The translations under genes were made by a program, and so were the position numbers. Positions 43,499-51,743 of a DNA stretch of 64,000 nucleotides are shown piece after piece; within the stretch, counting starts at the first letter, position 1, and every line of letters begins with the position of its first letter. The notes below the pieces were generated by a model. It made no database searches. It was not told the DNA's origin and was given only the letters and a program-made list of their open reading frames with translations. Source of the DNA: Aureispira sp. CCB-E (GTDB lineage Bacteria; Bacteroidota; Bacteroidia; Chitinophagales; Saprospiraceae); assembly GCF_031326345.1 (NCBI RefSeq), contig NZ_CP133671.1:1922001-1986000 (forward strand), in the 5' to 3' direction.

Positions 43499-44659
43499 CT
43501 ATCCTTTAAGAACGGCCAAAGGAGTTAATTGAACCATAATTTCAGCCAAATCTTTTTGATTCTCCATGACGATATCAATATCCTTATAAGCCCCCGTTGC
43601 CTCATCCAAATCCGAGGTATGTCGAATGGCATGAATGACGCCTTTTTGGTTTAATAATTCAATTTCATGTGCTAAATTTAGTTCACGTTGCGCCTGTTTT
43701 CTTCCTAGTTTTCGCCCTGCTCCATGCGAACAAGACATAAAAGATTCAGGGTTGCCAAGACCTTTGACAATATAAGAGCTGGTCCCTTGTGATCCTGGAA
43801 TCATTCCTAATTCGTCTTTGAAGGCACGTGTAGCTCCTTTTCGATGAACCAAAACATTTTCTCCGTAATGCTTTTCCCAAGCAGCAAAGTTGTGTGATTT
43901 ATTAATAATTTCATCACAATCAAATGTCCCTATAACTTCTGTAAGTGCTTCAACCATTCGTGTCATCATCAATTTTCGATTCGCCAAAGCATAAGCAATA
44001 CAGTAATTCATTTCAGCAATATAATCCTTTGCTTCTTGTGTCTCAATAGGCAAAAATGCTAGCTCCATTTTTTTGGTGACCACAGAGTGGTAACGCTCAT
44101 TCATTTGAATTGCTAAATTGTTGTAATGTTGTGCAACGGTATGCCCTAAAGCACGGCTACCAGAGTGGATCATTATCCAAATATAACCATCAGAACCTTG
44201 TTGGATTTCAATGAAATGATTGCCACCACCTAGTGTGCCAATTTGCTTAGTCCCTTTGGGGTATGCACGAGAGACAATTTGCAAATCTTCATATCCTTGT
44301 GGCATTAATGTTTCATCTTGAGGTTCAGCATGCCAGTTGAAACCTAGAGGAATCAATGTGCGGGCAATAGTTAATGTCTTTTTTAAGCTTTCTTTAGAAA
44401 CGTGCGTTAAACTTGTACGCATGGCACACATTCCACAGCCAATATCAACCCCCACAGCATTAGGTATGACAACTCCTTTGGTTGCCAAAATAGAGCCGAT
44501 AGGCATGCCATAACCTTGATGACTATCTGGCATAATAGGAATGTGTTTAAATGTGAATGGTAGGTTTGCCAAATTTTTAGCTTGTTCCAATGCGCCATCT
44601 TCTAAATCTGTCAACCATAATTTAATAGGCTTTTTCTCCGTTGAAATTACTTTTTTCAT
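43499..44659 (-). CDS. rtcB: RNA-splicing ligase RtcB
   Basis: 386 residues. Metal and catalytic residues are all present: Asp45 and His47 in MPDSHQG, Asp72 and Cys75 in VGVDIGCGM, Asn147/His148 in GGGNHFIE, His165 in HSGSRALGH, His256 in SHNF, and the guanylated His312 in CSHGAGR. RtcB joins RNA ends with 3'-phosphate or 2',3'-cyclic phosphate to 5'-OH ends, using GTP and Mn(II); these are the ends ribotoxins leave. Its promoter shares an operator-like sequence with the ankyrin-TerD-RNA operon 5 kb upstream. No archease or rtcA gene is in the window. ATG start. Confidence 0.95.
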   Translation of the reverse strand: MKKVISTEKKPIKLWLTDLEDGALEQAKNLANLPFTFKHIPIMPDSHQGYGMPIGSILATKGVVIPNAVGVDIGCGMCAMRTSLTHVSKESLKKTLTIARTLIPLGFNWHAEPQDETLMPQGYEDLQIVSRAYPKGTKQIGTLGGGNHFIEIQQGSDGYIWIMIHSGSRALGHTVAQHYNNLAIQMNERYHSVVTKKMELAFLPIETQEAKDYIAEMNYCIAYALANRKLMMTRMVEALTEVIGTFDCDEIINKSHNFAAWEKHYGENVLVHRKGATRAFKDELGMIPGSQGTSSYIVKGLGNPESFMSCSHGAGRKLGRKQAQRELNLAHEIELLNQKGVIHAIRHTSDLDEATGAYKDIDIVMENQKDLAEIMVQLTPLAVLKG

Positions 44660-45814: not shown

Positions 45815-45937
45815 AATGGTAATTAAAGTTATTATTTTAATCTGGTGCTCTACCAACTGAGCTACTCAATGAGAAAGGATTTGAACCTTTGACCTCCAGA
45901 TCCGTGATTTTTAGAAGGAAATAACTTTTAGTCCATT
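45815..45937 (-). ncRNA. tRNA-mimic RNA 8: circularly permuted cloverleaf on the scaffold
   Basis: Seen on the minus strand, 5' to 3': scaffold stem 1 AATGG (45937-45933), ACTA, stem 2 AAAGTTATT, unpaired TCCTTCTA box; then tRNA parts in permuted order: anticodon-stem 3' strand TCTGG (45900-45896), variable loop AGGTC, T arm AAAGG-TTCAAAT-CCTTT (45890-45874), a 3-bp acceptor remnant CTC-ATT-GAG, T8-A9, D arm GCTC-AGTTGGTA-GAGC (45862-45847), A26, anticodon-stem 5' strand CCAGA (45845-45841); then stem 2 partner AATAACTTT and stem 1 partner CCATT, running into seven T. The chain is open at the anticodon loop and closed at the acceptor end. All D/T-loop consensus bases are kept. Function unknown. 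Confidence 0.7.
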
Positions 45938-45979: not shown

Positions 45980-46130
45980 AGCTTGTATTATAAGTAATCC
46001 AAAAAATTATATACTGTTCTACCAGTTGAACTACTTTGTTTGCCCGAAGGAAAACAAAGGGTGGACTCGAACCACCACCTGTAGCGTGGAAGGCAAAGGA
46101 GGAAATTTTCTCTAGTCCTACACACAAGCT
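45980..46130 (-). ncRNA. tRNA-mimic RNA 7: circularly permuted cloverleaf with full acceptor stem
   Basis: Minus strand: stem 1 AGCTTGTGT (46130-46122) pairs with ATACAAGCT (45988-45980); stem 2 AGAAAATT pairs with AATTTTTT (46008-46001); a TTTCCTCCTTTG segment replaces the usual TTCCTTCT box. Inside: anticodon-stem 3' strand GCTAC (46085-46081), 4-base variable loop, T arm GGTGG-TTCGAGT-CCACC (46076-46060), an 8-bp acceptor stem CTTTGTTT/AAACAAAG (46059-46052 and 46041-46034) capped by a 10-base loop where a tRNA would have free ends, T8-A9, D arm GTTC-AACTGGTA-GAAC (46031-46016), A26, GTATA. The anticodon stem pairs weakly (3 bp). A T7 run follows. Confidence 0.7.
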
Positions 46131-46212: not shown

Positions 46213-46263
46213 CATTACTCTGTTGATTTTTTGCTTTTTCATAAAAAAATCAACAGAGTATTA
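46213..46263. mobile_element. 51-bp palindromic MITE copy inside the RNA array
   Basis: CATTACTCTGTTGATTTTTT and its near complement ending CAGAGTATTA form a hairpin, flanked by direct repeats TTAACA (46207-46212 and 46264-46269). Same ends as the 20068 and 49778 elements, interior lost. Confidence 0.7.
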
Positions 46264-46271
46264 TTAACAAA

Positions 46272-46332
46272 AACGGCAAAGAAACACACTGTCAGTTTGG
46301 AAGTGGTAGAAGGAAGTGTGTTATAGTCCGTT
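46272..46332 (-). ncRNA. scaffold RNA 5 of the tRNA-mimic array
   Basis: Minus strand: stem 1 AACGG/CCGTT, ACTAT spacer, stem 2 AACACACT/AGTGTGTT, then TCCTTCTA and a 16-base display segment CCACTTCCAAACTGAC with no obvious fold. Five T follow stem 1. Same architecture as elements 3, 4 and 8. Confidence 0.6.
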
Positions 46333-46343
46333 ATAATTTTTAA

Positions 46344-46422
46344 AAGAGGGAAGGGATGTTATTGTATAACCAAAACGAGTTAGGAGTCGAACCTAAAGAA
46401 GGAAATAACATCTAAGCCTCTT
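46344..46422 (-). ncRNA. scaffold RNA 4: T arm plus D-loop-like strand
   Basis: Minus strand: stem 1 AAGAGG/CCTCTT (46422-46417, 46349-46344), stem 2 ATGTTATT/AATAACAT, TCCTTCT box. The display part is a perfect T arm TTAGG-TTCGACT-CCTAA (46396-46380) followed by TTTTGGTTA, which reads like a tRNA D loop with its GG pair (46371-46370). It looks like a minimal tRNA elbow. Confidence 0.65.
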
Positions 46423-46456
46423 GTTAGTATAATAATTGTATTGGTGTAACTTTAGT

Positions 46457-46489
46457 TCCTACTGTGCTATTATTTTGAAGCACTAAGGA
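46457..46489 (-). ncRNA. hairpin between scaffold RNAs 3 and 4
   Basis: TCCT..GTGCT pairs with AGCAC..AGGA around TCAAAATAAT (minus strand). It has no scaffold box; it may be a spacer structure or processing site. Confidence 0.4.
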
Positions 46490-46501
46490 TTTTTTTATTA
46501 T

Positions 46502-46571
46502 TAGTGGAAACTAAAATAGCTATGTTGATTAAAAGTCAAGGTGTTAGAAGGAAGCTATTTTTAAGCCACTA
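46502..46571 (-). ncRNA. scaffold RNA 3: tRNA-Lys(UUU) anticodon stem-loop
   Basis: Minus strand: stem 1 TAGTGG/CCACTA, stem 2 AAAATAGCT/AGCTATTTT (46561-46553, 46521-46513), TCCTTCTA box. The display hairpin TTGACTTTTAATCAA (46539-46525) is base for base the anticodon stem-loop of E. coli tRNA-Lys: 4-bp stem TTGA/TCAA and 7-base loop CTTTTAA with anticodon TTT. This is the target of anticodon nucleases such as PrrC. Function here is inferred only. Confidence 0.65.
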
Positions 46572-46581
46572 GTTTAAATTG

Positions 46582-46670
46582 ATTCTATCTCGTAGAAAAT
46601 TGATAAACCTATTTGTTAGAAAAACAATTTCTATGTAGTAGAAGGAAGCTTTATCATATGCCATAGATAA
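46582..46670 (-). ncRNA. scaffold RNA 2 of the tRNA-mimic array
   Basis: Minus strand: imperfect stem 1 (TTATCTATGG with CTACGAGATAGAA), CATA spacer, stem 2 TGATAAA/TTTATCA (46556-46550, 46607-46601), TTCCTTCTA box. The display hairpin TTGTT-TTTCT-AACAA could also be drawn as a 4-bp stem with 7-base loop TTTTCTA. I cannot assign it to a tRNA. Confidence 0.55.
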
Positions 46671-46770: not shown

Positions 46771-48939
46771 TTAAATCAATTCTGTTAAAATCTGTTCTAC
46801 ATCCGTTGCGTTATACGTACAGTCTTTTACACCAAACGTAATGCTAGCATTTTCCTTGTAGGTTGTCAATTGCGCATTTCGAGCAGCAGCATGTGCCTGT
46901 GCTAACGTGCCAATAACTGGTCGTGTTTTGGTAAAGTTTGCCAATTGTGCACATAAAAGAGCCACATCATTGACAGACCCTTCTACATTATTATGAAATT
47001 GAACGCTAGAAACATACAAATCTGTTGAAATGATTTCTTGAGCTGCAATATCGACCATTAAGGGTACGGCATATCCTCCGACACCATTCAAGTCAAATTT
47101 GTTGGCAACTGTTTTTATATCAAAAGTTTTTATATCAGAAGTTGCCTTGTCTCTCAACATCCAACCTGCGTGGCAATCCATATCTCGGAAGTGTTCTCCT
47201 GAATATTTGTGCACTTGAACCGCTAAGTAACGTACCTTCTTTTTTAATTTAGACATCGTAATGTCTATAAATTCTGCAGCCCCGTATGGTGCTGACTGAA
47301 CATCACCAGAATGTACAATACCATTGCTAAAAAGTTGGGTATAAGACACATGCCCTAAATAGTTGAAGTATTCATCAAATTGGATACAAGACAAATCTAA
47401 ATCGGTTCGCACGGCGGTTTGTTTCCAATAAATAAACAAGCGCAATACTTTAGAAAAATCTGTTTTAATACGACTTCCTTTACCAACGGTTAAGATGCCA
47501 TCTGAACTTTTTCGTTGTTGCAACGGAATCGTATAATTCATTAATTCAGGATCAATCCAGACAGTTTCTTCGTTCCAAGGTTCTTTGTCAGTCAAGGCAG
47601 TTTTAATTGCTTTTTGAATGCAAAGCATAACTTTATCAATCTGAAGCTCCGAAAGGGCAGCAAAAGCATTGTTAGTTAGAACCTTCATCTTTCCTTTTTT
47701 GTTAACAACCGTGCGATAGGCAGCCTCATTAATTTCTGAAAAATAAGCTTGCATTACCAATAAATTTTTCAAAGCTACCTTGGCGATATTTTTTTCAAAA
47801 GAAGCCAAAATTTTATCCAACTCTTTAGGAAAACGTCGAAGTACCTCGTGCAATTTTCGGGCATAGACACCTGGTTTGTTTTCCAAATGTTTTAACAACG
47901 CATCTACTTCTGCCAAGGCTAATAATTGCTCTGTTCTAGAATGGTAGGTTTCAATTTTTCCATTGCGTAAAGCATCAAAGACCTCAGCCGTACGTGGGTA
48001 TTGCTTGCTGTATTCAAAAGGGTGCAAATAGCGTCCAATTTCTAGCCAAAGTCCTTTGTATTTATTCAAGTCCTCTGCTAAGCCAGATGATTTTTCTAAA
48101 ATAGCCAAAACAACTTTTCGAGCTTTTCTTGGTAATTTAGGAAACTTGATTTTTTGATTTAGACTAACATCAGAACCAGTAAGAGCTGCGAATAAACGCA
48201 AGACATCTGTTGCTGTTTTTGCCAATTGAGCGACCGCTTGGTAGTCCTCTTTTTTCCAAAAATATTGCATCAGCAAAGCTTTCGTTTCTTTAAAAACGAT
48301 TAAATCACTATCTAAGTCATTGGCACCAAAAAAATCTAGCAATTCGTATAGATCCTCGTGCAAAGCTTCTTTGATCGAAGATTTAGAATAAACCAAACGA
48401 GCCAAGTAAGCCTTCAGTTCATCCGCCAAATCTTCATCGTGTACAATACGCAAATCAATCCATTCGACATGGGCATCACCATTCTTAGAAATATTTTCAG
48501 CAGCCGCTAAATCAAACAACTCTTTAGATTGCATTTGAGAGATAGGGTCTGCGCCAAACTCTTTGAGATTAAATAGCCATTTAGGTACTTTAATACCATT
48601 TTCTAATGCCACAGTATCGGGAAAGAGGTCAAGGATATTTCCAATATAGCCAATGATTCGTTTACTAAAATACACAGCATCGTTGGGAACTTGCTCTGGA
48701 AATTTTTTAAACAAAGGGACATACGTCACATCGCCACCTCGTTTTTTGGTCAAGGTGCTCATCAAATGTTTGTAATCCATTAAAAAAGTACTAGAAACTT
48801 CTTGTAGTATCTCTGGGTTGGTAATACGATAACCTAATTGAGCCAACTCTGCCAAAAAGGTAAGTTGATGCGCTTGGCTAAGACCATTTCCCTTTGCAAT
48901 TCCTAAAATATTCAATCTATTTAATGCGATTGTTTTCAT
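46771..48939 (-). CDS. TerD-like protein resembling the MXAN_6230/SCO0854 family, without RING finger
   Basis: 722 residues, soluble. The N-terminal block (PLFKKFPEQVPNDAVYFSKRIIGYI) and a long helical middle lead into a C-terminal TerD/tellurium-resistance-like domain (about 485-700): DLDLSCIQFDEYFNYLGHV, VHSGDVQSAPYGAAEFIDI with HSGD at 543-546, VRYLAVQVHKYSGEHF, and a calcium-fold-like end. I recognise the overall layout as the MXAN_6230/SCO0854 family, whose members usually carry a zinc RING finger after the PLF block; no Cys cluster is present here. Role unknown. It lies between the tRNA-Cys-like gene and the tRNA-mimic array on one strand, so it is the best protein candidate to bind these RNAs (inference). 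Confidence 0.72.
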   Translation of the reverse strand: MKTIALNRLNILGIAKGNGLSQAHQLTFLAELAQLGYRITNPEILQEVSSTFLMDYKHLMSTLTKKRGGDVTYVPLFKKFPEQVPNDAVYFSKRIIGYIGNILDLFPDTVALENGIKVPKWLFNLKEFGADPISQMQSKELFDLAAAENISKNGDAHVEWIDLRIVHDEDLADELKAYLARLVYSKSSIKEALHEDLYELLDFFGANDLDSDLIVFKETKALLMQYFWKKEDYQAVAQLAKTATDVLRLFAALTGSDVSLNQKIKFPKLPRKARKVVLAILEKSSGLAEDLNKYKGLWLEIGRYLHPFEYSKQYPRTAEVFDALRNGKIETYHSRTEQLLALAEVDALLKHLENKPGVYARKLHEVLRRFPKELDKILASFEKNIAKVALKNLLVMQAYFSEINEAAYRTVVNKKGKMKVLTNNAFAALSELQIDKVMLCIQKAIKTALTDKEPWNEETVWIDPELMNYTIPLQQRKSSDGILTVGKGSRIKTDFSKVLRLFIYWKQTAVRTDLDLSCIQFDEYFNYLGHVSYTQLFSNGIVHSGDVQSAPYGAAEFIDITMSKLKKKVRYLAVQVHKYSGEHFRDMDCHAGWMLRDKATSDIKTFDIKTVANKFDLNGVGGYAVPLMVDIAAQEIISTDLYVSSVQFHNNVEGSVNDVALLCAQLANFTKTRPVIGTLAQAHAAARNAQLTTYKENASITFGVKDCTYNATDVEQILTELI

Positions 48940-48969
48940 GGTAACTAGTGTTTAATGGTATTAAAATAG

Positions 48970-49041
48970 AGGCTGTGGAAGGAATCAAACCTTCTTATCT
49001 TGGGTTGCAACCAAGCACCTAAATCAGTCGGACACACAGCC
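48970..49041 (-). tRNA. tRNA-Cys(GCA)-like gene with unusual D arm
   Basis: Minus strand: acceptor GGCTGTG/CACAGCC (perfect 7 bp), anticodon arm CTTGG-TTGCAAC-CCAAG with anticodon GCA (plus-strand 49006-49008), T arm GAAGG-TTTGATT-CCTTC, and T73, the Cys discriminator; CCA is not encoded (CTA follows). Oddities: the D stem is reduced to about 2 bp, the D loop has GA where GG is usual, and T-loop C56 is T, so the G19-C56 tertiary pair may have become A19-U56. It sits between the ankyrin and TerD-like genes. It may be a working tRNA-Cys or another mimic. Confidence 0.65.
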
Positions 49042-49071
49042 GTTTTATAGTCAAATGTATGTTTATCGTAA

Positions 49072-49103
49072 CATTACTCTATTGAAAAATCAACCAAGTA
49101 TTA
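49072..49103. repeat. 32-bp remnant of the MITE family
   Basis: CATTACTCTATTG and CCAAGTATTA keep both ends; flanks TCGTAA and TAGTAA are near-identical, as expected for an old target duplication. Confidence 0.45.
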
Positions 49104-49616
49104 TAGTAATGCTGCGATGTCTAAATACCCATAGTATCGAGCTTCTTCTCTAGCAGTTGCATAGTTATCTATGCAAGTTCTTAACGTTGTATTGGCTCCG
49201 TTTTTTAACAGTAATCGAACTGCTTGTATATCTTTTCTAGCTACTGCCATATGCAAGGGAGACCAACCATTAACAGCTAGTTGATGTTCTTTTGTTCCAA
49301 TGTCAATAGGAGCGTTGTAGTCAATTAATAATTGCATGATAGTGTATTTGCTCGGCAAATATCTGTCGATGCAAGAATGTAAAACAGAGTACCCTTCTTC
49401 GTCTACAAAATTCAAATCAACTTCTTGAGAAAGCATCCAAACAACCGATTGGAAAGAACCACAATCAATAGCATTGGTAATCCATCTTCGACCAATCAAT
49501 GCATCGCAACCATTTGGAAAGTCATGGATTTTTTTGGCTAACTTGATCCAATCAATTGTTGAACCTTGCCTCAATGCATGGATGACCAAATTATAAGATG
49601 TCAGGTTAGAAGCCAT
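49101..49616 (-). CDS. ankyrin-repeat protein
   Basis: 171 residues, soluble, three to four ankyrin repeats: EEGYSVLHSCIDRYLPSKYTIMQLLIDYNAPID and NGWSPLHMAVARKDIQAVRLLLKNGANTTL are clear, with degenerate units at both ends. A protein-binding scaffold by family. It is the first gene after the operator-like promoter (49714-49749), followed by the tRNA-Cys-like gene, the TerD-like gene and the RNA array, all on one strand. Its stop overlaps a MITE remnant. Confidence 0.82.
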   Translation of the reverse strand: MASNLTSYNLVIHALRQGSTIDWIKLAKKIHDFPNGCDALIGRRWITNAIDCGSFQSVVWMLSQEVDLNFVDEEGYSVLHSCIDRYLPSKYTIMQLLIDYNAPIDIGTKEHQLAVNGWSPLHMAVARKDIQAVRLLLKNGANTTLRTCIDNYATAREEARYYGYLDIAALL

Positions 49617-49749: not shown

Positions 49750-49777
49750 GTTAATAATTTTGTCTATTTTTATTTTT

Positions 49778-49923
49778 CATTACTCCGTTGAAAAATCGTA
49801 TCAGTTTGATTATCAGTAAGATGTATTTCTATTGACTTTTGTAGTAAAAGGCTGATAATCAAACTGATACAAGATGCTTTTTTATGTTTTTTATAGAAAA
49901 ACTAAAAAATCAACGGAGTATTA
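49778..49923 (-). mobile_element. MITE-like element, full-length copy
   Basis: 146 bp with ends CATTACTCCGTTG and CAACGGAGTATTA, flanked by ATTTTT on both sides (49772-49777 and 49924-49929). Its reverse complement aligns over the whole length with the 20068 element. Internal arms ATCAGTTTGATTATCAG and CTGATAATCAAACTGAT are also inverted. Confidence 0.75.
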
Positions 49924-50048
49924 ATTTTTAGTAGTAAAAAATATATTCTTTGTTTTTGTTGTAAATTATTGTTAGTTAGTGCTTTGTGTTTTTTTTGTTT
50001 TTTGTGTGGAGTATGTTTTTTTAGCACTATTTTATTAAAATATTCCCA

Positions 50049-51743
50049 ATGCCAGTTAACAGAAATGCGCTTATTCGTTATAAAACAATTGATAAATGCC
50101 TCCAAAATCGCTATAGAAAGTGGACATTGGATGATTTGATAGAGGCTTGCTCGGATGCTTTGTACGAATACGAAGGAATTGACAAGGGGGTTAGTAAGAG
50201 AACTGTTCAAGGAGATATTCAAATAATGCGCAGCGACAAACTAGGGTATAATGCTCCTATTATTGTTGTTGATAAGCGTTATTACACCTATGAAGAACCC
50301 ACTTATAGTATCACCAACATTCCGTTAACAGATCAAGATTTAAGTATGCTGACAGATGCCGTGGCATTTATGAAGCAATTCAAAGGGTTCTCTCATTTTA
50401 AAGAGTTGGATGGTATGGTTCAGAAGCTAGAAGACCACATCTATTCTCAAAAAACAGCGACCAAACCTGTTATTGATTTTGAAAAAAATGACAACCTAAA
50501 AGGTTTGGAGTATTTGGATACCTTGTATCAAGCTATTATCAAAAAACAAGTGCTCAAAATAACGTATCAATCGTTTAAAGCTAGAAAAGCAAATCGGTTT
50601 GAGTTCCATCCTTATTTGCTAAAAGAGTTTAGAAATCGTTGGTTTTTGATCGGTGTTAGAGAAGGAACAGTAGGGATTATGAATTTGGCTTTGGATAGAA
50701 TAGAGGGGATTGAACCAAGTGAATTGTGGTTTAAGGAGGAAGAAGGGTTTGATGCAGAAATTTATTTTAAAAATGCAATTGGGGTTTCTGTTAGCCCGAC
50801 GGCCAAAGTAGAGGAAGTGCTTTTGTATGTTAATTATCAGCATGCTCCTTATGTGTTGACAAAGCCCTTGCATCATTCTCAAGAATTGATAGAAAAAGAC
50901 CACTATGGAATTACGATTGCATTGCAAGTGCAGCATAATTTTGAACTAGAAAAAGCTATTCTAGGTTTTGGAGAAGGTGTAAAAGTTTTAGCTCCCGAAA
51001 AGTTGCGACGAAAAATAAAAGAGCGCATCAATGCCAATATTGATCTGTATAATACAGAAATTACAGAGCGTGGTTTGCGAGCAGCAGGGCAAAAATTAAA
51101 ACACAAAGGATACGCTGTTTTAAATCATTTGTATAGCCAACGAGAAATTAAGCAATTGGGGAGTTTACTGCATAAAAAAATAGGAGAAGATTTAAAAAAT
51201 GGAAGCGGCGTTTTTCGGCAATTGCTTCTAGAGCACCCCACTTTAATTAAGGTGATTATGAATCGAAATCTAACTCGGTTAATCAAGCACATAGACCCCA
51301 ATGCTTTCTTGGTAAAAGCCACTTTCTTTAGCAAAGCACCTAACCAATTACCGCATCAAGCGTGGCATCAAATGAACAATTTAAGTATTGATACTTTGTC
51401 AAAGTCCATTGATGTCTCAAAGACCATTTCTGATGATTGGGTTGGTCGTGTGTTTTGTGTGCGGATTCATTTGGATGATGTTAAGGAAGACAATGCACAA
51501 CAACTGGTTTTGGCAGGTTCTCATAAGAAACGGTTCACAAAAGAAGAGATTGATTTGTTGAGCAACAACAGCAACCCTTATACCTTAGATTTGTATAGTG
51601 GAACAGCCTTGGTAACAAGTGCTTTGTTGTTGACGCGTTTTTCAATAGCTTCGGCTCCCAAACGACGTCGAGTCTTACATTTAGAATTTAGCTCAAAGCA
51701 CTTGCCCAATGAGTTGCAATGGACGGAACAAATGAAGTTTTGA
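50049..51743 (+). CDS. WYL-domain regulator fused to a degenerate phytanoyl-CoA-dioxygenase-like domain
   Basis: 564 residues. N-terminal winged-helix DNA-binding part (1-75, VSKRTVQGDIQIMRSDKL), a WYL domain (about 155-235; core Trp198-Phe199-Leu200 in RNRWFLIGVREG) and its C-terminal extension (to about 345). Residues about 360-560 resemble a PhyH-type 2OG-Fe(II) oxygenase: RIHLDDVKEDNAQQLVLAGSHKK with His492, and RRRVLHLEFS. The first iron motif, normally HxD in WHQD, reads His440-Gln-Met442, so the Asp ligand is lost and catalysis is doubtful. WYL domains often sense nucleic-acid-type ligands. Divergent from the ankyrin operon, so it is a likely regulator of the shared operators (inference). 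Confidence 0.82.
   Translation: MPVNRNALIRYKTIDKCLQNRYRKWTLDDLIEACSDALYEYEGIDKGVSKRTVQGDIQIMRSDKLGYNAPIIVVDKRYYTYEEPTYSITNIPLTDQDLSMLTDAVAFMKQFKGFSHFKELDGMVQKLEDHIYSQKTATKPVIDFEKNDNLKGLEYLDTLYQAIIKKQVLKITYQSFKARKANRFEFHPYLLKEFRNRWFLIGVREGTVGIMNLALDRIEGIEPSELWFKEEEGFDAEIYFKNAIGVSVSPTAKVEEVLLYVNYQHAPYVLTKPLHHSQELIEKDHYGITIALQVQHNFELEKAILGFGEGVKVLAPEKLRRKIKERINANIDLYNTEITERGLRAAGQKLKHKGYAVLNHLYSQREIKQLGSLLHKKIGEDLKNGSGVFRQLLLEHPTLIKVIMNRNLTRLIKHIDPNAFLVKATFFSKAPNQLPHQAWHQMNNLSIDTLSKSIDVSKTISDDWVGRVFCVRIHLDDVKEDNAQQLVLAGSHKKRFTKEEIDLLSNNSNPYTLDLYSGTALVTSALLLTRFSIASAPKRRRVLHLEFSSKHLPNELQWTEQMKF

Follow-up and report, generated by a model that had tools for sequence, protein, structure and literature searches.

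Bacterial Y RNAs of the YrlA type (RF02553) with their partner Ro60/Rsr are the closest described system to the locus analysed here. The two have in common that the RNAs adjoin the protein gene, that a stem handle is combined with a permuted tRNA-like module, that RtcB is present in some loci and that multiple RNAs occur per protein gene. A further point of reference is the rsr-yrlBA-rtcBA locus of Salmonella, where, as here, a tRNA-like RNA is found together with RtcB and a protein presumed to be an RNA-binding platform. In the literature, the Y RNA of D. radiodurans is described as tethering PNPase to Rsr and gating it (PMC4726728, PMC7790460), YrlA is raised as a possible competitive inhibitor of an anticodon nuclease (PMC7790460), and YrlA fragments are reported as not detected in Salmonella (PMC7790460).

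In spite of these similarities, the RNAs that we describe resemble the Y RNA system without being members of it by the tests of score and of partner. Their YrlA scores lie well under the Rfam gathering threshold, their arrays contain displays unlike tRNA, and there are forms in which the scaffold serves as the anticodon arm of a tRNA. Their putative partner, a protein of 722 residues termed P722, is not a TROVE protein by sequence but a TerD-containing relative of MXAN_6230/SCO0854, and compared with the Salmonella locus a TerD protein takes the place of Ro60, a WYL regulator is found in 8 of 31 longer loci, and RtcR occurs in Variovorax. P722 shares with the TerD tellurite-resistance family the fold of its C-terminal domain (TerD-labelled chains, Z 13.0-15.4), but it fuses this domain to a helical-repeat region, is linked to RNAs and has no Pfam TerD match. 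It likewise matches the model of the MXAN_6230/SCO0854 RING protein (NF041916), but at 347 bits it stays under the cut-off of 600, no Pfam RING match is present, and the name of that model is silent on RNA. No Rfam family exceeds its threshold at the elements, and among openly licensed PMC papers we found none that links TerD/MXAN_6230-type proteins to Y-like RNAs.

The window, by which we mean the whole stretch of 64,000 nucleotides that was analysed, is part of the genome of Aureispira sp. CCB-E (7.39 Mb, two contigs, completeness 99.93%). The RNA elements occupy an intergenic region of about 1.1 kb on the minus strand, downstream of the P722 gene and before a gene of 271 amino acids, which has no Pfam match, and that of RtcB. 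The features surrounding them are as follows.

50049 to 51743, plus strand: WYL/WCX transcription regulator, divergent and a recurrent neighbour, with a weak C-terminal PhyH-like match
46771 to 48939, minus strand: P722, 722 amino acids, the presumed RNA partner, with helical repeats at about 160-450 and a TerD-like beta sandwich at about 481-669
46216 to 46260, minus strand: perfect 17-bp inverted repeat between elements D and E, outside the scaffold, from a repeat search
43499 to 44659, minus strand: RtcB RNA ligase (PF01139, E 6.1e-107)

The inverted repeat is possibly a terminator or a small repeat, and a stem-loop repeat ATTACTCYRTTGA... is present in three copies around the locus, at 46216-46260, 49071-49104 and 49777-49924. 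A single tRNA-Cys gene (48969-49041) lies immediately upstream of P722 and is also found in L027 and L030; in the Fulvivirga locus L028 a tRNA-Tyr occupies its place upstream of the P722-type gene. The dioxygenase-like PhyH C-terminus of the WYL/WCX regulator is weak in the window (E 0.027) and clear in L028 (7803-9524, E 7e-13). Note that the P722 proteins of the window and of Aureispira sp. CCB-QB1 (L030) have 99.6% identity and that the two loci are nearly identical.

A first-pass annotation had proposed for positions 46272-46571 that several elements share a two-stem scaffold and a box but differ in their display segments. Descriptor scans and covariation bear this out, and the span does contain real scaffold elements, but only B, C and D, three of the six that are arranged 5' to 3' on the minus strand from 46655 down to 45815.

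46597 to 46655, minus strand: element A, 8 of 9 stem 2 pairs, a TTCCTTCT box, an AT-rich display and a degenerate stem 1
46502 to 46571, minus strand: element B, TAGTGG/CTTA/AAAATAGCT/TCCTTCT, full scaffold with a short single-stranded display
46344 to 46422, minus strand: element C, AAGAGG/CTTA/GATGTTATT/TCCTTCT, full scaffold
46272 to 46332, minus strand: element D, AACGG/ACTA/TAACACACT/TCCTTCT, full scaffold with a short display, followed by a T run
45989 to 46122, minus strand: element E, scaffold with a weaker stem 1 and TTCCTCCT in the box position
45815 to 45937, minus strand: element F, AATGG/ACTA/AAAGTTATT/TCCTTCT, full scaffold

Elements B, C, D and F follow a common plan, in which stem 1 ends in GG, paired by CC, and leads into an internal loop of 4/5 nt, with for instance CTTA or ACTA on the 5' side and AATTA or AGTTT on the 3' side. 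The 9-bp stem 2 ends in T, paired by A, and is followed by the unpaired TCCTTCT box, after which come the variable display, the partner strand of stem 2, five bases and the partner strand of stem 1. Descriptor scans recovered these four, while E was found by a looser scan only; in E, TTCCTCCT stands where the near-identical locus L030 has TTCCTTCT. With the RNA model R1, elements B, C and D, all training rows, scored 67.1, 55.8 and 50.6 bits, and F, which is not a training row, scored 43.2 bits (E 1e-6). Element A reached 27.4 bits over model positions 11-63 only, with an E value of 0.0045 in the locus search and 0.059 genome-wide. The locus search with R1 gave no match for E, and the minimum-free-energy fold of this element does not show the scaffold. 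Run over its own genome, R1 gave four matches in the window and one elsewhere at E 0.98, missing E and F. The fold of B consists of the two stems (z -2.77), and z values of -1.92 and -2.87 were obtained for C and D. The TCCTTCT box itself has 12 occurrences in the window, where 3.49 would be expected, with 5 of the 12 inside the array. As two elements of L029 read CCTCCTTCT, a role of the box as a mimic of the 16S 3' end (anti-SD) was considered, which the TACTTC form of a second RNA type makes less likely.

It had also been proposed that the stems differ in sequence while pairing is kept, and the alignments confirm it. In an alignment of 25 elements (A2), whose rows were chosen in part for pairing, 97.6% of 379 cells are paired, 15 of 18 pairs have changed on both sides, and the covariation score is 0.691; shuffles gave 0.177, and sliding the alignment gave no more than 0.169. 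For the 18 rows outside the training set (17 distinct), which trained nothing yet were located using the model, 96.1% of 255 cells are paired and the score is 0.751 against 0.171. A second scaffold form gave 0.523 versus 0.128 over 15 rows, in which the misaligned row L056 of alignment A4 was retained. A strict descriptor yielded 30 matches in 18 sources, 27 of them adjoining the P722-type gene, and in the control 2 matches in 5 mononucleotide shuffles of six of the 18 sources. At 39 of 56 T(C/A)CTTC sites in 14 array regions a stem 2 partner with at least seven pairs was found, as opposed to 15% with shuffled downstream DNA. A chance local repeat is thus ruled out by the covariation, also outside the training rows, and by the genome-wide matches.

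The suggestion that T runs at the ends mark separate RNAs did not hold up. Only D and F are followed by at least five T (C by four), and the sole terminator-like site is the T-arm of E. Separately terminated RNAs as a general rule are rejected on account of this terminator search and by the Fulvivirga locus L028, where five elements are lined up from the stop codon of the protein gene onwards with a spacing of only 2-9 nt; this tight arrangement suggests one transcript, perhaps processed.

That the displays vary was correctly seen in the first-pass annotation, which missed both the protein partner and the permuted tRNA-like modules in E and F. The display of F is a circularly permuted tRNA body that runs from an anticodon-stem half, TCTGG, through a T-arm, a closed acceptor stem-loop and a D-arm to the other anticodon-stem half, CCAGA, by which it is closed. 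In E the T-arm, closed acceptor stem-loop and D-arm follow in the same order, again circularly permuted and tRNA-like. Element C carries one tRNA T-arm-like hairpin (AGGTTCGACTCCT) and the remaining displays are loops, of which the short ones might conceivably be antisense guides. Against YrlA (RF02553) F scores 32.3 bits (E 7.3e-5) and E 28.9 bits (E 6.9e-4), both under the gathering threshold of 69, as do five YrlA-like elements of relatives (L028, L029, two in L033, and L091) with 35.9-40.9 bits. Sub-threshold matches to RF02553 elsewhere in the genome combine the T-arm of one tRNA gene with the D-arm of its neighbour, and they can mislead YrlA searches. As the genome-wide matches that we checked fall into runs of tRNA genes, the tRNA-like module alone is weak evidence, and it is the scaffold enclosing it that counts.

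A different arrangement is found in L039, L041 and L043. Here the tRNA keeps its usual order, the scaffold stands in for the anticodon arm, and a loop caps stem 1 (in L039 this is a GAAA tetraloop). The z values of these folds are -3.38, -4.00 and -2.10, the minimum-free-energy fold of L043 being partly unlike a cloverleaf. The permuted display and the tRNA with a scaffold arm are circular permutations of one another, which suggests that handle plus tRNA body form a unit, wherever its ends lie, at stem 1 or at the acceptor. In the folds of L091 and L033:870-997 stem 1, T-arm and acceptor are present and stem 2 is absent; the fold of the phage element L125:5628-5758 includes both scaffold stems and also the T, acceptor and D stems.

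As for the protein, the match of P722 to NF041916 is best over the stretch 328-699. No Pfam match exceeds its cut-off, with RING, TerD and TROVE all absent; both distant Bacteroidota forms of P722 that were scanned contain a RING-like insertion that matches Prok-RING_4 below the cut-off. In the AlphaFold model (pLDDT 70.9, pTM 0.53) the beta sandwich adopts a TerD fold according to Foldseek (E 2.5e-4 for 3ibz, 2.9e-4 for 2qz7), and TerD chains are the best matches of residues 481-669, a result that leaves room for a C-terminal vWA domain as in Ro60 proteins and for fold families outside the VIA lists. In VIA, TerD-labelled chains follow with Z values of 15.4, 14.3 and 13.0 on a top row, 9a6r, that does not carry this label (16.4). 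The rows after TerD are Ro proteins, namely D. radiodurans Rsr (2nvo; Z 9.6, rmsd 6.1, 305 aligned), a TROVE domain (Z 7.8) and other Ro60 entries (7.1 to 5.5). When residues 155-470 were used alone (model pLDDT 72.3), Ro proteins took the two top rows, 2nvo with Z 9.6, rmsd 10.0 and 247 aligned and 9l5y with Z 8.3, rmsd 9.9 and 224 aligned, above rows that align about 100 residues; note that VIA Z values of this size can arise between helical repeats from similar shape alone. For the helical part Foldseek returned nothing at E<=0.001. Homology between P722 and TROVE at the sequence level finds no support from hhalign, with a probability of 1.2% against four TROVE proteins, nor from Pfam, where a TROVE match is absent, and sequence homology to a PDB chain is likewise unsupported, with one row only, at E 0.57. 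The Ro60 likeness of the modelled fold is suggestive. Among phage homologues, 3 of 3 scanned belong to phrog_33734, annotated as 'unknown function'.

Relatives were located via the adjacent P722 gene, which gave 8 loci in GTDB genomes and was present in 10 of 100 genomes of the same family (own genome included). Carriers of P722 amount to 7 of 395 genomes of the class (own included) and to 21 of 140 genomes in the class of G831 (Kofleriaceae, Myxococcota), and homologues were also retrieved from 11 phage records (two doubled between databases), 31 PLSDB records and 4 viral contigs. The same scaffold is found beside the gene in Aureispira, Fulvivirga, Saprospiraceae and Chitinophagales and in one Planctomycetota and one Kofleriaceae genome. 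The second form, with the order GG-TCA-stem 2-TACTTC-display-stem 2'-ATTA-CC, lies beside distant P722 homologues (about 24% identical). Taken together, scaffold and P722-type gene occur in six bacterial phyla and in phages, with one locus apiece for Planctomycetota, Streptomyces (L122) and Niallia (L126). The first-pass proposal, drawn from a single locus, therefore extends to other genomes, where the model matches beside the same protein family.

At E<=0.01, R1 or R2 match at least once in 42 of 50 protein loci. All 81 counted matches (80 distinct elements, of which 40 had served as training rows) are on the strand of the gene and none is inside it, at a median distance of 134 nt and a maximum of 836 nt; this count leaves out the R2 match L125 5762-5819, a second match to an element already counted. 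Among the 8 loci without an RNA match, L026 is cut by a contig end, L044 starts within the gene, and the RNA of L104 lies beyond the fetched flank. The RNA adjoins the P722 homologue in 3 of the 4 viral contigs. The side on which the scaffold lies varies by lineage, 5' of the gene in some and 3' in others, and the largest array, in L033, has seven elements.

Linkage was also evident from genome-wide searches. Across the Myxococcota class R1 matched 13 of 140 genomes, all among the 21 carriers and none among the 119 non-carriers, and each match is on the contig of the gene, within about 1.1 kb of the matched segment. The hypergeometric probability of this overlap is 2.8e-13, or 1.9e-12 without G831, the sole training genome. 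Eight of the 21 carriers had no genome-wide R1 match; three of these (L094, L106, L107) were matched in the locus search. A pattern derived only from genomes of the own GTDB family matched 6 of 395 genomes of the class, including 4 of the 6 other carriers (p 2.3e-7); the non-carriers G534 and G801 were matched once each, and the reversed control matched three genomes once each. The genome-wide search with R2 matched 5 of 395 genomes, all among the 6 other carriers, and is a weak test since 4 of the 5 had supplied training rows. Over 395 genomes of the phylum R1 matched only the own genome, with 12 candidates scored in the genomes shown and misses possible, and the RNA form of the window is accordingly rare in Bacteroidota.

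An orphan pair of type-2 elements was identified in G590 (L074, G590:C222) at 1364-1572 on the minus strand, on another contig than the protein gene and flanked, as read by eye, by YbaK-like and glycine dehydrogenase genes. One of the two, found by eye adjoining an R2 match, is a tRNA with the scaffold as anticodon arm, and the folds have z values of -3.51 and -3.18. Together with the changes between 5' and 3' positions, these orphans hint that the RNAs can work in trans.

Two phages were also inspected. In jumbo phage XacN1 (L123 3460-3850) three scaffold-like elements and a tRNA-like piece were seen by eye just upstream of the P722 homologue; R1 matches two of the three, one only at E 0.069. 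In Rhodococcus phage Weasels2 (L125 5458-5850) an array was made out by eye that comprises four elements, among them one whose display is a permuted tRNA; R1 matches two of the four, one at E 0.014.

By tblastn, RtcB is a neighbour in 8 of 31 longer loci, the same number as for the WYL regulator. The Variovorax locus contains rtcR, in Vibrio vulnificus an RNA ligase is annotated at a distance of about 3 kb, in Weasels2 RtcB and five annotated tRNAs surround the P722-type gene, and in Fulvivirga an RNase_T-type exonuclease is placed between array and RtcB. The recurrence of RtcB and WYL, with RtcR, exonuclease and RNA ligase occurring singly, points to RNA repair or quality control.

The similarity to Y RNAs raises the question of how the locus relates to genuine Ro60. 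The own genome, in spite of its 99.93% completeness, contains no TROVE gene, and TROVE is present in 4 of 23 genomes carrying P722 relatives. In the four TROVE loci that we read, a TTACTTC outside the TROVE gene is found on the strand of the gene in all four and never on the opposite strand, an occurrence expected per locus in 8-17% of mononucleotide shuffles. The RNAs with this box beside TROVE genes are the following.

L062, 2562-2868: TTACTTC-box RNAs beside the TROVE gene
L063, 2942-3034: TTACTTC-box RNA beside the TROVE gene
L064, about 735-840: TTACTTC-box RNA beside the TROVE gene
L065, 633-764: TTACTTC-box RNA beside the TROVE gene

R1 has no match in these four loci, and R2 matches in one of them with part of the model only, in L062, 456 nt 3' of the TROVE gene (E 0.0011) and beside a YrlA match. 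This YrlA match is sub-threshold, as is one in L065, which adjoins a tRNA gene. The folds of the two L062 RNAs are at best slightly more stable than expected by chance (z -1.24 and +0.57), and the gene upstream of TROVE in this locus starts, by eye, like the WYL regulator of the window. In L063, positions 150-624 beside the TROVE gene give a GOLLD match (142.6 bits, gathering 150) plus five tRNAs and look like a phage or prophage region. The Y RNAs of Ro60 may thus have the box, and perhaps the handle, in common with the RNAs of the TerD protein.

Several explanations have to be weighed against one another. The elements might be sites in the leader or tail of the P722 mRNA itself, through which P722 or a tRNA-like signal would regulate its expression in cis. 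The uniform strand and closeness of the 81 matches would fit such autoregulation, as would the start of the Fulvivirga array at the stop codon and the situation in many Myxococcota, where a single element 42 to 575 nt upstream of the gene could be a cis element. However, the flips between 5' and 3' positions, the arrays of up to seven elements (L033), some with tRNA bodies, which exceed the needs of a binding site, and the G590 pair between other genes on another contig make us regard this reading as unlikely. Another proposal would have the displays act as baits that mimic tRNA bodies or other targets of RNA-cutting toxins, with the protein presenting or sensing them and RtcB resealing the cuts. 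It draws on the tRNA-like displays, the RtcB neighbour, the occurrence in a phage tRNA cluster and the possible role of YrlA as an anticodon nuclease inhibitor raised in PMC7790460; but the majority of displays are short loops without tRNA features, the same paper reports YrlA fragments as not detected in Salmonella, and a PADLOC search with P722 gave nothing at E<=0.01. We give this proposal a small chance.

The YrlA-like displays and the box that they share with RNAs beside TROVE genes could also be taken to mean that the elements are ordinary bacterial Y RNAs serving a genuine Ro60 (TROVE) protein encoded at another place in the genome, a very improbable reading given that the nearly complete own genome has no TROVE, that only 4 of 23 genomes of the P722 family do, and that the linkage is to the P722 gene. 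Finally, a T-arm followed by the next D-arm resembles a permuted tRNA, and checked YrlA matches elsewhere in the genome do span or sit in runs of tRNA genes, so that the modules might be thought of as debris of tandem tRNA genes. This explanation is ruled out for practical purposes: ARAGORN finds no tRNA in the array, the 34 own-genome tRNAs that were compared include no close parent (best 37/51 letters), both halves of one anticodon stem pair inside F, and the module is enclosed by a covarying scaffold that recurs in other phyla.

The explanation that we favour, and consider probable, is that the elements are the RNA half and P722 the protein half of a Ro60/Y-RNA-like ribonucleoprotein for RNA repair or quality control. 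The scaffold, its covariation and spread, its close linkage to the protein gene and the tRNA-like displays are established by the data above; the box found also beside true Ro60 genes and the Ro-like fold of the model are suggestive. P722 would bind the scaffold, and the RNAs would act in trans in a repair role. The handle gripped by P722 would comprise the GG/CC stem 1, an ACTA-type loop, the 9-bp stem 2 with its closing C-G and T-A pairs and a TCCTTC or TACTTC box, and by analogy with the Rsr-Y RNA-PNPase complex of D. radiodurans it would anchor each RNA to the TerD protein. The display would be the working end that recruits, gates or baits partners, as Y RNAs do on Ro60. As displays differ within one locus, one protein could be loaded with several RNAs and thereby with several tools.

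A wider interpretation, for and against which we see the case as evenly balanced, is a second Y-RNA world, in which a TerD-based Ro60-like protein, spread over six phyla and several phages, employs RNAs with a conserved handle, often in arrays, and exchangeable tips (loops, T-arms, permuted tRNAs, tRNA with the handle as anticodon arm) to sense, sort or repair damaged RNA. If this is true, an uncharacterised family of many phyla (MXAN_6230/SCO0854 relatives; phrog_33734) would gain a partner RNA and a process, and since the box is also found beside true Ro60 genes, the relation of the two systems is testable. In the arrays one presumed binding site is available in many natural versions, which is useful for dissecting recognition. 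The Ro60-Y RNA principle would then extend to bacteria and phages without Ro60, and the handle with its many RNA tips would amount to a naturally occurring, modular display system.
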